A stretch of 43,245 nt of DNA, from contig PCBK01000169.1 of NCBI GenBank assembly GCA_002731275.1, positions 1-43,245 of the forward strand. The letters are read 5' to 3'. Numbering within the stretch: position 1 is the stretch's first letter; every line of letters begins with the position of its first letter. Shown here one piece after another: positions 8,700-23,829 of this stretch. The position numbers and the translations under genes are program-made. The notes under the pieces were generated by a model. The model saw nothing but the letters and a program-made list of their open reading frames with translations, searched no databases and had not been told where the DNA came from. Source of the DNA: Deltaproteobacteria bacterium. Lineage in GTDB: Bacteria > Myxococcota_C > UBA6777.

Positions 8700-11600
8700 T
8701 CACTTCAACAGAGGATCTGCTGAAGTCAATGTTCTCGTATTGCCAGCAACATCGGACAATTCGACACGGGAGACCTTCCAGTCACCGACAGTCGAAGTCG
8801 CCGGAATCCTCAAGATTCCTTCAAATCGTTTTGTCGCAGGATTGTAGGACAAAGAAGCCCACATCAAGTCTGCAGCCCCCGGTCCTTTGAGTTGAATGGA
8901 GGCTTGTGAAACACCTGAGTCATTATCGGAGATCTCAGCGTACACCCTGACCTGCTCTCCAGCCCGAGCCTGTGCAGGGAACACCATCAGTTGTGTCATC
9001 ACAGGAGCGTCTGTATCAGGTTGCGTCGTCGCACCACGTACAGTCACCTGGAGCCCCTTCACAAGGCTATCCGAATCGCTTAGTTGCACTTGATTTCCGG
9101 CACGGTCACTGGCCGTTGCAGACGCCCCTTTCCACACACCATTTTCAGAGTACTTGCCAATCGTGCCTTCCCCTTCCCATTTGTTTGTCGCAGGATTGTA
9201 TTTCAAATTCGCAAACATACGATGTTTTTGCGAAGGAGATACGAGCAACACAGACACAGAGGCCACACCACTCCCAACATCGGACACCTCTGCGTACAAG
9301 CGAACAGAGTCTCCTGCAAGAACAGTCCCCTGTCCTCTCTTCAATGAGGCAAACACCGGCGCTTTTGTATCCGTTGAAGGTGTCCCACCGCTCACCTCCA
9401 GAGGCGCATCGAGCATCTCCGAACCAACAGCGCCCAGCTGGTATACAGATTGGTTCCGTGCCTTATCCAACACCTCGGCGCTTTGGATTTTCCAGCTGCC
9501 ATTTTCTGCATCAACAGCAAAAGAGACCGACGCCTCCCACCTCTTTGTCGCTGAATTATACGACAATTCAACTGAACGATACTGCCCAGAGGGCGAAGAG
9601 AGCGCAACAGAGAGGCTCCCAACACCATCCCCTTTATCTGTCGCCTCAGCCTGCAGGAAAATGGACTTTCCTGCGATCACCTTCGCGGCAGGCAACCACT
9701 TAAGTGACACCAACGAAGGAGCCTCATTATCACCAGGAGGTACAGGCGCACCCTGGAGTATTTTAAGTGATATCTGCTTGCTCAATTTGCGAGTAAGGAT
9801 CGCACTTATATCAAGAGGTTGAAGTGTTAACAGATCATTCTCACGGATACTTGAACTGTTTCCTGCTGCGTCACCGAATTGGCAGCGCGCGACACTCCAC
9901 CCGCCAGTGAAACTTTGTGAGGGGACCTTGTAATTTCCTTCAAACAATTGAGACACAGGGTTGTACTGAAGGACCGCCGAACCATACGAAGCATACTCAC
10001 CTTCAGAGAGAGGCGGTTTCAACGCACAAAATGCCTCCGTGATCCCAATGTTATCGTCGGCCTTTGCGTACACCCTGATCGATTGACCGGCATCAACCTT
10101 CCGCGGAAAGAGATTCACAAGTCCATGTGTTGGGGCTGTTGTGTCGGATGGGGCAGGCGTTGGGTTCACCTGAAAACCTCGGTGTTCCGTCGCAAGAGAG
10201 GTAACATGGGAGATCTGCAAAGCAGGCAGCGCCCCTATCGCCAGCGAATCGGACTTGCCTTCGTTTCCGGCTTTATCTTGGTACGCACATGAGGATAGCA
10301 ACCACTGACCACCAGCTGCGTCTGTTGGCAAGACCACTTCCCCCTCCCACAAAGACGTCGCCGGATTGAAGGCAAGATCAACATCAACGCTCCCCCTCAC
10401 GGCACCAACAACATGTTCAGCCTTGACCTCACAGCTGACCTTTGAGACACCACTCCCCACATCTTCGACACCGACAAACAGCCGCAATGACTCGCCAGCG
10501 TCCACAGTATCAGCCGAGAAATGTGTACCTTTCATCACAGGAGGAGTGGTCTCTGAAGGCCCACCTTGTTTGCTATTCAAGACAACAACAAACGGATCCT
10601 GAGAAGCCTGACTTGTCGCGCTTGCAATATTTAGGGCCGGAAGTGTCGCAAGGACCGAAGAGGGCATTGAATTGGAGAGACCCGCCTTGTCCTGCAAGTA
10701 GCAACCAGAGACCCACCATTCACCGGCAGGATCAGTGTCAGAGAAGTGAAGATTTCCTTCGTAAAAACCTGTATCCGTGTTGTACTGGAGAGATGTGCTC
10801 TTTTTGGCATTCGGCGTTGGTCCCTGGAAGCTACATGAAGCAAATTGGATACCACTCCCGCCAGGATCTTCGAGTCTTGTGTACACTCGCACCATCTTCC
10901 CAGCGTCGACTTTTCCAGGGGCAAGGTGAAAACCTTTCACCACAGGACGTTCACGATCAAGTCCTTGTCCTTGTGTCACCATAAAATGAAGATGTTCTTT
11001 CCAGGTCTCTCGTTCTTGTTGTGTCAGGTAGGGTACATTTTGAAGGTTTTTACCATCGATTTGAAGTGTATTTCCACTTGCATCTCGAAACGATAGGGAT
11101 TGGAGAGACCACACACCACCTCGACTATAAAGTGGGATCTTTGACACTCCCTCCCAAAGACCACGAGCTGGATTGTGCCAAAGGTTGAAGTACAAGCGAC
11201 CTGCACCAAACGCATCGTTGATCACAGCCTGCCCCCACACAACACCAGAGTCAGCGTCAGAGACCTTCACAAGCAACCTGACCACTTCACCATCCGCAAC
11301 CTCTCCAGGCGCCAACCACGCAGCGTGAAGCTGGGGTGGAACTTTATCAGTCCCAGGATTCGGTGGTGTCGTTGTCCCTTTTTCGACATCGAAGGTCTTA
11401 TTTTGAAGCAAGGGATCCGAAGCCCCGACACTGATAGTATTCTCAGCAACATCAGCAAGATCAACAGATTGAATCGACCAGGACTCGGTCCCTGCATAAT
11501 TGGGAATCGTGATCATAGCTTCATATCGCTGGTGAATCGTGTGGTAAAACGCATCTCCTTGTGCAGAGACACCGCTGGCTGACGCCAATTGAATGGTGAC

Positions 11601-12377
11601 ACGATCGATCGGACTCAATCCATCTGTGGCTTTTACCCAGACACGGACGACATCACCAGCCTTCACCTTTTTGTCAGCCACTCCAGCACTTTGTAGGACT
11701 GGAGGCACAATATCGACGGTTCCAGCCTTGATCTCGACAGTCATCCCTTTGATAGGATCTTGATCGTTCAGGTATATCGCTGGGTTCCCAGCACCATCGA
11801 GAAGGTTCACACGAGAAATTTTCCACTTACCGCCCTCTACATAAGACGGCACACGGTGAAGTCCCTCGAACTGCTTGTGGGATGGATGGTAGGTTGTCGT
11901 GAGATACATCGAGTGGTGACCGTTGGGACTCTCTATCGAGACCTGGGCACCGACTACGCCAGACAGATCCGTGCCGACCTTCACATAGACACTGAGAAGG
12001 CCACCAGCTTTGATATCATTTGAAAAGGTAAGCGATACGAGTTTTGGTGGGACAACATCTTCAGCCTTGGCTTTGACGACAAATGTGAACTTTTTGGGAC
12101 CTGCCTGTTCATCCGGCGCAGGTGCATCAAACTCAGGTGCTCGCTCAGGTCCAGGAGGTGTATCGTCCTGTGGCCCTTGTTCAACTCCCCTCTCACCAGC
12201 GTCAACAACGGACTCAGTATTTGGTTCAGAAGCCACTTCGCTGTGCTTCTCCACACCCTGCTCAGACAGGGTCTCCGTTTTCTTCTCTGTGCCCACAGGT
12301 TCCTGTGAACAATGAGTGAGAGAGAACAAGGCGATCAGGAGGCTGGCAATCCAACCTACGTGGAGAACGCGTGACAT
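8700..12377 (-). CDS. Large surface lipoprotein with nine Ig-like/beta-sandwich repeats
   Basis: The 1225-residue protein begins with a lipoprotein-type signal ending FSLTHC (Cys23; His at -1 is unusual), then a linker of about 80 residues rich in E, D and P typical of surface tethers. From residue 107 to the end it is nine repeats of about 105-130 residues. Each opens with a D(T/K/V)xxPP or DTxAP motif and then shows AGxxVRVYAxxxD, SGV, LxYNPATxxxEG, WxxSxxxLxDxAGN and a final DPL-like turn. The pattern suits bacterial Ig-like or cadherin-like adhesion domains with Asp/Asn calcium-type positions, but no catalytic motif is seen. Repeats 4, 5 and 6 each carry one Cys pair at equivalent places; the others have none. 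AGGAG precedes the ATG. It starts 12 bp after rsgA ends, so the two are probably cotranscribed. Role inferred: adhesion or envelope scaffold. Confidence 0.75.
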   Translation of the reverse strand: MSRVLHVGWIASLLIALFSLTHCSQEPVGTEKKTETLSEQGVEKHSEVASEPNTESVVDAGERGVEQGPQDDTPPGPERAPEFDAPAPDEQAGPKKFTFVVKAKAEDVVPPKLVSLTFSNDIKAGGLLSVYVKVGTDLSGVVGAQVSIESPNGHHSMYLTTTYHPSHKQFEGLHRVPSYVEGGKWKISRVNLLDGAGNPAIYLNDQDPIKGMTVEIKAGTVDIVPPVLQSAGVADKKVKAGDVVRVWVKATDGLSPIDRVTIQLASASGVSAQGDAFYHTIHQRYEAMITIPNYAGTESWSIQSVDLADVAENTISVGASDPLLQNKTFDVEKGTTTPPNPGTDKVPPQLHAAWLAPGEVADGEVVRLLVKVSDADSGVVWGQAVINDAFGAGRLYFNLWHNPARGLWEGVSKIPLYSRGGVWSLQSLSFRDASGNTLQIDGKNLQNVPYLTQQERETWKEHLHFMVTQGQGLDRERPVVKGFHLAPGKVDAGKMVRVYTRLEDPGGSGIQFASCSFQGPTPNAKKSTSLQYNTDTGFYEGNLHFSDTDPAGEWWVSGCYLQDKAGLSNSMPSSVLATLPALNIASATSQASQDPFVVVLNSKQGGPSETTPPVMKGTHFSADTVDAGESLRLFVGVEDVGSGVSKVSCEVKAEHVVGAVRGSVDVDLAFNPATSLWEGEVVLPTDAAGGQWLLSSCAYQDKAGNEGKSDSLAIGALPALQISHVTSLATEHRGFQVNPTPAPSDTTAPTHGLVNLFPRKVDAGQSIRVYAKADDNIGITEAFCALKPPLSEGEYASYGSAVLQYNPVSQLFEGNYKVPSQSFTGGWSVARCQFGDAAGNSSSIRENDLLTLQPLDISAILTRKLSKQISLKILQGAPVPPGDNEAPSLVSLKWLPAAKVIAGKSIFLQAEATDKGDGVGSLSVALSSPSGQYRSVELSYNSATKRWEASVSFAVDAENGSWKIQSAEVLDKARNQSVYQLGAVGSEMLDAPLEVSGGTPSTDTKAPVFASLKRGQGTVLAGDSVRLYAEVSDVGSGVASVSVLLVSPSQKHRMFANLKYNPATNKWEGEGTIGKYSENGVWKGASATASDRAGNQVQLSDSDSLVKGLQVTVRGATTQPDTDAPVMTQLMVFPAQARAGEQVRVYAEISDNDSGVSQASIQLKGPGAADLMWASLSYNPATKRFEGILRIPATSTVGDWKVSRVELSDVAGNTRTLTSADPLLK
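8703..12059 (-). repeat. Nine tandem protein-level repeats of about 105-130 residues
   Basis: Repeat boundaries read from recurring D-x-x-(P/A)-P openings in the 1225-residue lipoprotein. The last three repeats (coding 8703 to about 9740) are the most regular, with YNPAT or YNSAT in each. The first three are more diverged. Confidence 0.8.
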
Positions 12378-17077: not shown

Positions 17078-18061
17078 ATGGGTGAAGCGATTCTCATCAC
17101 TTCTGGAAAAGGTGGTGTCGGGAAAACTACAGTGACTGCAAACCTCGGAATTGCTCTTGCACTTTCTGGCAAGCGTGTTGTCGTAATTGACGCTGACATC
17201 GGTTTGCGCAACCTCGACGTTGTCCTCGGACTCGAAAACCGTGTCGTCTACGACCTCGTCCACGTCATCGAAGGATACTGTAAACTCCGACAGGCATTGG
17301 TCAAAGACAAGCGACTCGAAAACTTCTATCTCCTACCGGCTGCTCAAACACGTGACAAATCTGCTGTTGACGCCAGCCAAATGCGCAAATTGATCAACGA
17401 AATCAAACAAAGCGCTGATTACGTCCTCGTCGACTGCCCCGCGGGTATCGAAGAAGGATTCAAAAACGCCATCGCAGGAACCGACCGCGCGCTCGTCGTC
17501 ACCACACCTGAGATGTCTGCCATCCGCGACGCTGACCGCATCATCGGCATGGTCGAAAGCTACGGACAGGTTGAGCTTGAGCCCAAACGCCAAAAGCTCA
17601 TGCAGCAACTTCAGTTCGTCAAAACTGAATTGCAAAACAAAGTCTACCAAATGCAGGCAGACCGCACCAACCAAGATCTCAAACTTCAAGTCCAACGCCT
17701 TGAGTTCCGTGCACAAGAGATCGAAAACCAATTGCGCAGCCTTCGCTACGACATCCAACTCATCCTCAACCGTTACAGAACAGCCATGGTCAAACGCGGT
17801 GAAATGATGAACCAGGAAGATGTTCAGGAGATCCTCAACATCCCATTCATTGGTGTCTTACCTGACAGCGAAGAGATCGTCACCTCGACAAACGCAGGAA
17901 AACCCATCTCCTTCAACGACCGCTCCATGCTTGGTAACTCTTTCAGAGCGATCAGCGAACGGGTACAGGGATTTGACGTTCCTCTCAGCGCACTTGACGA
18001 AGAAGTCGGATTTTTCTCGAAAATGAAACAATTTATGGGCATCGGGAGGATCGAAGCATGA
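17078..18061 (+). CDS. minD: Septum-site determining ATPase MinD with an internal coiled-coil insertion
   Basis: MinD is a membrane-cycling ATPase that positions the division site together with MinE. Seen: deviant Walker A GKGGVGKT (10-17, K11), IDADIGLRNLD (37-47), VLVDCPAGIE (116-125), TTPEMSAIRDADRIIG (142-157), VKRGEMM then DVQEILNIPFIGV, and a C-terminal amphipathic membrane-targeting helix (FFSKMKQFMG). It is 327 residues against about 270 usually. The excess is a Q/E/K/R-rich heptad-like segment at about 164-223 (coding 17567-17746), inserted just before the conserved LILNRYR strand. The frame is intact on both sides, so it is an insertion, not an error. ATG at 17078 is chosen over an upstream GTG at 17063, which overlaps the GAGGAT ribosome-binding site. 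It overlaps minE by ATGA. Confidence 0.92.
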   Translation: MGEAILITSGKGGVGKTTVTANLGIALALSGKRVVVIDADIGLRNLDVVLGLENRVVYDLVHVIEGYCKLRQALVKDKRLENFYLLPAAQTRDKSAVDASQMRKLINEIKQSADYVLVDCPAGIEEGFKNAIAGTDRALVVTTPEMSAIRDADRIIGMVESYGQVELEPKRQKLMQQLQFVKTELQNKVYQMQADRTNQDLKLQVQRLEFRAQEIENQLRSLRYDIQLILNRYRTAMVKRGEMMNQEDVQEILNIPFIGVLPDSEEIVTSTNAGKPISFNDRSMLGNSFRAISERVQGFDVPLSALDEEVGFFSKMKQFMGIGRIEA

Positions 18062-18372
18062 TTTTCTCTATCTTTAACTGGATCTTTACCAACAAAACCG
18101 AAGAAGACGATAAGTCCGGTTCGGTTGCCAAGCAACGTCTCCAGTTGCTCTTGGTACATGATCGAGTCCAACTGCCACCTCACCAGATGGAGGCGCTCAA
18201 ACGCGACCTCCTCGAAGTGGTCAAACGATACGTCGAGCTTGGTGGGAGCGACCTCGAAGTCAATCTCGAACAACTACCAGACTCCAGAAATATGGCGCTC
18301 GTCTCCAATATCCCCGTCAAACGCGTCCTCGACGCAAATGACGATGAGATTGAGATCTCAGCTCCATTCTAA
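18058..18372 (+). CDS. minE: MinE, topological specificity factor for cell division
   Basis: MinE stimulates the MinD ATPase and drives its pole-to-pole or gradient behaviour. The 104-residue protein starts with a hydrophobic amphipathic stretch (MIFSIFNWIF) that fits the membrane-binding N-terminus. It then shows the family core: AKQRLQLLLVHDR (the MinD-contact segment), LKRDLLEVVKRYVEL, and a C-terminal dimerisation region with VNLEQL and MALVSNIPV. The start ATG overlaps the minD stop (ATGA), implying translational coupling. It is slightly longer than the usual 80-90 residues, mostly at the N-terminal linker (TNKTEEDDKSGS). Confidence 0.9.
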   Translation: MIFSIFNWIFTNKTEEDDKSGSVAKQRLQLLLVHDRVQLPPHQMEALKRDLLEVVKRYVELGGSDLEVNLEQLPDSRNMALVSNIPVKRVLDANDDEIEISAPF

Positions 18373-22605: not shown

Positions 22606-23829
22606 ATGCGTAGATGGTTTGTCTTGCTCCTTTTTGTTGCCTTCCAAGGAGGATGCCACCTGCTGTATGTCCCTCCCGCTCCACTGTGCACAGGAACACA
22701 ATGCCCAACAAGCGACGCTGGCATACAAAGAGAGGTACAGACCACTTGTGGAGATAACATCTGCGACCTCGAAAGAGAGAGCTGCGCGAGCTGCCCCCAA
22801 GATTGCAAATGCCCGACAGGTTCATACTGCTCCCCCAACAAAGAGCTCTGCATCGTCTCATGTGGAGATGGAATCTGTTCAGATGATGACAACGAAAACT
22901 GTCGATCATGTCCAAAAGACTGTGCTTGCAAAACAGGCACACTCTGCACCACCACAGGTCTCTGCACGACGATCCAAAAAACGTGCGGAGACAAGATGTG
23001 TGATCAAAAAGTAGGCGAGAATTGCCTGACATGTCCAGTGGATTGTCCTTGTGTAACAGGAACATGTAACAATGGGACGTGCCTCGGCACACAACCCTGT
23101 GGAGATGGGAAATGTGATCCAGGCGTCGGCGAAAATTGTACGACGTGCCCAAAAGATTGCACCTGCCCAGTCGATCAGAAATGTGCTGTCGGTGTCTGCT
23201 CGAAGACATGTGGTGATCGTGTCTGCGACACCTCCATCGGCGAGAACTGTGCAAACTGCTATCAAGATTGCAGCTGCTCACAAGGATTGGGATGTTTGCC
23301 AAATGGACAATGTGCGCAGTGTCAATGTACAGCCACACAAAGGCGATGTAACGGCATATATGTCGAAAGTTGCTCACCAGACTGCCAAACCTGGAACCAG
23401 ATTCAACAATGTACAAAGAGCCAATACTGCGCGCTCGGAACGTGTAAAAACCTCTGCGGGAATGGTGTCTGTGACAAGAAATCTGGCGAAAGCTGCACAA
23501 CCTGCCCAGTGGACTGTCCATGTAACGCAAAATTTATCTGCGAAAAGGGGATCTGTATCGCGTCCTCGACGTGTGGCAATGGTGTCTGTGACGCCAATGA
23601 AAATTGCGACACGTGTGCAAGTGATTGTCTATGCAAACAAACAGCGTACTGCTCAAAAGGTCTGTGCACCAAATGTCCCAAATGCACCCCCGGCACCTAT
23701 CAATGTATATCTCTCTTTCCCCATCCTTTTGTGGAGCTTTCCAAGTGTGAATGTGACAAGTGGACCTATCTCACAACTTGCAAACTCCCCTTCGAATCGT
23801 GCAATGAAAAATTGGGCAAGTGTGAATAA
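22606..23829 (+). CDS. Cys-rich repeat lipoprotein
   Basis: The 407-residue protein has a lipoprotein signal (LLLFVAFQGGC, Cys17). It is then almost wholly made of Cys-rich units of about 35-40 residues with the pattern CGDGxCD, GENCxxCPxDC, C, and a closing CxxGxC. Seven clear units and one degenerate unit (around the QCQCTATQRRC segment) are visible, followed by a different C-terminal Cys-containing tail. The regular Cys spacing implies disulfide-stabilised small domains on the cell surface or in the periplasm. Function is unknown; I know such repeats mainly from large-genome deltaproteobacteria. It converges on the next gene with 8 bp between stops. Confidence 0.75.
   Translation: MRRWFVLLLFVAFQGGCHLLYVPPAPLCTGTQCPTSDAGIQREVQTTCGDNICDLERESCASCPQDCKCPTGSYCSPNKELCIVSCGDGICSDDDNENCRSCPKDCACKTGTLCTTTGLCTTIQKTCGDKMCDQKVGENCLTCPVDCPCVTGTCNNGTCLGTQPCGDGKCDPGVGENCTTCPKDCTCPVDQKCAVGVCSKTCGDRVCDTSIGENCANCYQDCSCSQGLGCLPNGQCAQCQCTATQRRCNGIYVESCSPDCQTWNQIQQCTKSQYCALGTCKNLCGNGVCDKKSGESCTTCPVDCPCNAKFICEKGICIASSTCGNGVCDANENCDTCASDCLCKQTAYCSKGLCTKCPKCTPGTYQCISLFPHPFVELSKCECDKWTYLTTCKLPFESCNEKLGKCE

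Follow-up and report, generated by a model that had tools for sequence, protein, structure and literature searches.

The stretch of DNA analysed here (the window, 43,245 nucleotides of contig PCBK01000169.1 in the Deltaproteobacteria bacterium assembly GCA_002731275.1) carries a minD gene and, directly after it, minE. MinD is a division-site protein, and is among the most conserved of all division proteins. The minD gene of the window encodes a large insertion, whose features are collected in Table 1. Two other genes of the window drew attention in their own right. Positions 22606-23829 (+) encode a cysteine-rich protein in which CGDGxCD-like motifs recur and whose start resembles that of a lipoprotein; positions 8700-12377 (-) encode a secreted-looking protein of 1225 amino acids built with many similar repeats, each of ~110-120 residues.

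Table 1. Features of the minDE locus (positions in the window; residues numbered as in the MinD product)
Feature	Position	Strand	Description
minD	17078..18061 (stop included)	+	327 aa
helix 7	17513..17575	+	residues 146-166, predicted (AlphaFold2 pLDDT ~90-97)
insertion	17567..17758	+	residues 164-227; 64 aa versus 7 in relative, net +57
hairpin helix A	17579..17659	+	residues 168-194, predicted (AlphaFold2 pLDDT ~90-97)
hairpin turn	17660..17671	+	residues 195-198, predicted (AlphaFold2)
hairpin helix B	17672..17737	+	residues 199-220, predicted (AlphaFold2 pLDDT ~90-97); heptad test covers 199-223
C-terminal amphipathic-looking, putative membrane-targeting region	18011..18058	+	residues 312-327; conserved with relative (L010)
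minE	18058..18372	+	104 aa; 4-base overlap with minD stop; PF03776 5e-22, TIGR01215 above cut-off

The protein is a true MinD of the MinCDE system, with its core motifs and fold intact. It scores 358.8 bits against TIGR01968, the NCBIfam profile for bacterial MinD (cut-off 212.9), in a match that is split into two stretches, the first of which stops at residue 166. The motifs GKGGVGKT and DCPAG are invariant with relatives, as are the individual positions K11, K16, D38, D40, D119 and P121-G123 of the deviant Walker A, switch I (D38/D40) and Walker B elements. An AlphaFold2 model of the full-length protein (mean pLDDT 86.3) superimposes outside the insert on E. coli MinD (3q9l) with Z 36.1 and rmsd 1.8 over 255 residues, and the top Foldseek matches to the model are MinD throughout. 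The C-terminus has a predicted short helix (312-319) of low pLDDT in a tail that is modelled without confidence, but is conserved with the relative. The MinDs of known structure, from E. coli (3q9l), P. aeruginosa (6riq) and A. aeolicus (4v02/4v03), resemble it in fold (Z 34-36, ~1.4-1.8 A), in Walker motifs, in helix-7 contact residues, in the adjoining minE, and in having a C-terminal tail. The known bacterial MinDs differ from the one in the window in the loop after helix 7, of 11-21 residues in them and 72 here.

This loop holds the insertion. An initial annotation had placed an in-frame insertion at 17567-17746, which corresponds exactly to residues 164-223, and the frame is indeed open on both sides. 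The insertion as delimited here runs for 64 residues between G163 and LILNRYR. Its base composition and most of its codon choices resemble those of the rest of minD, with CTT, CAA and GAG mildly favoured. Pfam finds no domain within it. A search for its source elsewhere in the genome found none; because the best other match reaches only E 0.28, duplication from elsewhere in the genome is unsupported. The longest direct repeat across the region is 7 bases.

What might such an insertion look like? AlphaFold2, run on an eight-sequence alignment whose other members all leave the insertion uncovered, confidently predicts an antiparallel helical hairpin; the initial annotation had named a prediction with no such hairpin as a refutation. 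Folded alone and without an alignment, the insertion gave no confident model (pLDDT 45). Single-sequence structure predictions often fail, and this outcome is best taken as uninformative or as mildly against autonomous folding, not as a strong refutation.

The sequence itself has the heptad character first ascribed to it. Periodicity exceeds that of shuffled sequences in helix B (p 0.0001) and less clearly in helix A (p 0.07), the combined value being matched in 0 of 20,000 shuffles. In an antiparallel register where facing residue numbers sum to 393, L174 meets L219, L178 meets I215, V181 meets A212, L185 meets L208 and M192 meets L201; R171/L222 and K188/V205 fail to match. This mirrored hydrophobic register beats shuffles moderately (p 0.004 with alanine included, 0.036 without it), but it and the heptad p-values are optimistic, because the helix bounds were picked after the model was seen and the register range after the sequence was inspected. 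At 27 residues and 1.5 angstroms per residue, the arm would extend about 40 angstroms, similar to the width of MinD itself. Together, model and sequence make one anatomy well supported: the insertion would form a lineage-specific antiparallel coiled-coil hairpin of ~57 net residues at helix 7's C-terminal end.

Such an insertion is rare. When the loop is measured from DADRxxG in helix 7 to the next [NT]R in the following strand, its 72 residues compare with 11-21 in 44 other MinDs, 34 of which have exactly 13; the enteric-type MinDs have the longer loops within this range. Of 386 genomes sampled from across the domain, 62 encode a MinD above the TIGR01968 cut-off, and the above-cut-off matches listed are single stretches of ~735-801 bases, except the MinD of the window and a partial match in G366 (profile 50-261). 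The matches listed span 783-804 bases in 156 MinD-bearing genomes from one large phylum, and 750-789 bases in 185 from another. From 364 MinD-like matches on plasmids, 60 were taken evenly; those covering 1-316 of the query span ~795 bases, ~51 codons below the query. Viral contigs held two MinD relatives and nothing matching the insertion. Thus, among the matches listed, no second MinD with the insertion appeared in ~400 MinD-bearing genomes plus the plasmids. A literature search by title and abstract, with many subscription papers outside its coverage, likewise returned no MinD with a comparable insertion. Within this coverage, the insertion does not look like the common or already described feature that the initial annotation had allowed for.

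Several apparent further cases dissolved on inspection. Longer open frames in G041, G186 and G267 are upstream frame extensions, with loops of 11-12 residues. A partial match in G829, a 64%-complete genome, ends at profile position 139 in a 176-aa frame, and does not cover the insertion region. A match on a Paenibacillus plasmid (1-160) has an ordinary loop.

The nearest relative is the MinD of a genome of the same family (G004, L010:1084-1896), where the insertion is replaced by the 7-aa loop QHHSSPA. The two proteins are 75% identical overall, with 135/163 residues identical before the insertion site and 65/100 after it, and the gene order htrA(-like)-minD-minE-dus is common to both. Because it is missing from a member of the same family whose gene order is identical here, the insertion is, on sequence comparison, a lineage-specific feature that sets two close relatives apart. 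All other MinDs inspected are also without it, so a gain in the lineage of the window is the simpler reading, one that draws on five genomes of the phylum.

The partners of MinD are, of course, relevant here. MinE is intact, and is 46% identical to the MinE of the relative. The initial annotation had taken MinC to be absent, and had the insertion possibly making up for it. This proved mistaken: another contig of the same genome (C131) encodes a MinC with both MinC_N and MinC_C domains (L009:730-1863, 377 aa; MinC_C 90.8 bits, with a weaker match to the N-terminal domain). Its R-x-G and GD motifs are conserved, and its two domains are joined by a long proline-rich linker. Such a linker is a feature of the MinCs of this group wherever their sequence was read. 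Beyond a few residues, neither the MinE nor the MinC of the window genome shows any obvious novelty matching the arm. Close to minC, contig C131 has a further gene resembling minD, but its product begins with an Mrp-type N-terminal domain and reads as Mrp/ApbC-like rather than as MinD.

All five genomes of the group or phylum encode MinC_C (L009 on C131, L078, L079, L080, L081). MinD and MinE were detected in two of the five, the window genome and G004; two of the other three are 86% complete. MinC thus appears to persist without MinDE in three relatives' genomes, two of them only 86% complete. In one family, two genomes carry tandem minD pairs, G267 (L031:459-2202, minus strand) and G131 (L026:175-1791); the pair at L031 has MinC-like sequence before it and minE-like sequence after it.

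Where the arm emerges bears on what it might do. In E. coli MinD, S148, D154 and I159 of helix 7 make contacts for both the RSGQ motif of MinC and the contact helix of MinE (PMC6803595). By alignment, these are S147, D153 and M158 here, the first two identical and the third changed from isoleucine to methionine. The insertion begins at 164, five to six residues past M158 in the same helix. In the MinCD filament of P. aeruginosa, R165 of MinD lies at the MinC-MinD interface (PMC6771821); residue 164 of that MinD aligns with Q164 here. The same paper equates R165 with E. coli R133, a numbering at odds with our alignment, and this contact is therefore taken with reserve. On alignment and model, the insertion would grow from the partner-docking flank of MinD.

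We tentatively favour, at somewhat less than even confidence, a surface arm that adjusts how MinC and MinE dock or compete, or how MinCD assembles. The arm would touch or shield the face of MinD on which MinC and MinE dock. It might alter the grip of MinD on MinC, make the displacement of MinC by MinE easier or harder, or affect whether MinCD copolymers form. The rationale for placing its action there is that helix 7 is the site of MinC/MinE competition, and that the P. aeruginosa interface residue falls in the same loop. Since the site adjoins this helix, the partner binding or oligomerisation proposed in the initial annotation is also plausible as an inference. There is a precedent of a kind. 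Adding helix 3 of A. aeolicus MinC to E. coli MinC strengthens the MinC-MinD contact and lets MinC compete with MinE (PMC5548801). That helix, like the arm, is an extra helical element at the MinC-MinD contact; unlike the arm, it is a single helix, it belongs to MinC, and it contacts helix 8 of MinD, whereas here a hairpin on MinD follows helix 7. Some findings weaken a role in docking. The arm is in one sequence only, so conservation or selection is not demonstrable; the partners MinE and MinC are without obvious matching change; and the low pLDDT of the insertion folded alone also counts against it.

The single sequence and the partners without matching change also speak for neutral expansion, a serious rival, which retains a sizeable minority of the probability. 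Here, a permissive surface loop would have grown into a hairpin that folds on itself and is tolerated without any specific role. The loop is already variable, at 11-21 residues and longer in enteric-type MinDs, and a relative 81-83% identical upstream manages without the arm. However, ordered heptads and a confidently predicted hairpin exceed what is expected of an unconstrained low-complexity stretch, and no other large expansion at this site was seen in ~400 MinD genomes, among the matches listed.

The coiled-coil character could also serve oligomerisation, with hairpins of adjacent MinD dimers packing to give MinC-independent clusters or lattices on the membrane. F180, Y190, L203 and F210 read as lying off the hairpin core, and might provide a second face. 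But the hydrophobic core is consumed within the hairpin itself, and with MinC present no substitute is needed; such an arm is improbable. We give even less credence to docking on a lineage-specific partner, or on acidic surfaces such as membrane or nucleoid: the two helices are net positive (10 basic residues versus 6 acidic) and the loop is exposed, but no partner gene linked to minDE was found, and the neighbours of minDE are those of the arm-less relative. An assembly or binning artefact is very improbable, for although the genome is a draft of 200 contigs (an estimated 94.65% complete, with 5.5% contamination), the insertion is in frame on both sides, resembles its gene in base composition and codon use, has no further copy in the genome and sits in conserved gene order.

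The favoured reading, of an arm acting on MinC/MinE docking, has a bolder form, in which a MinD acquired its own coiled-coil arm and thereby rewired MinC-MinE competition or MinCD assembly, giving the Min oscillator a built-in regulator not previously described. This we regard as unlikely. The value of the case is limited, of course, because the arm is known from one draft genome. Still, the arm would sit on the very surface of MinD that MinC and MinE contest. Arm-bearing and arm-less MinDs of close relatives, in operons of the same make-up, would offer a natural gain/loss pair for probing how far the oscillator depends on that surface, and the same pair may bear on whether MinCD copolymers matter.
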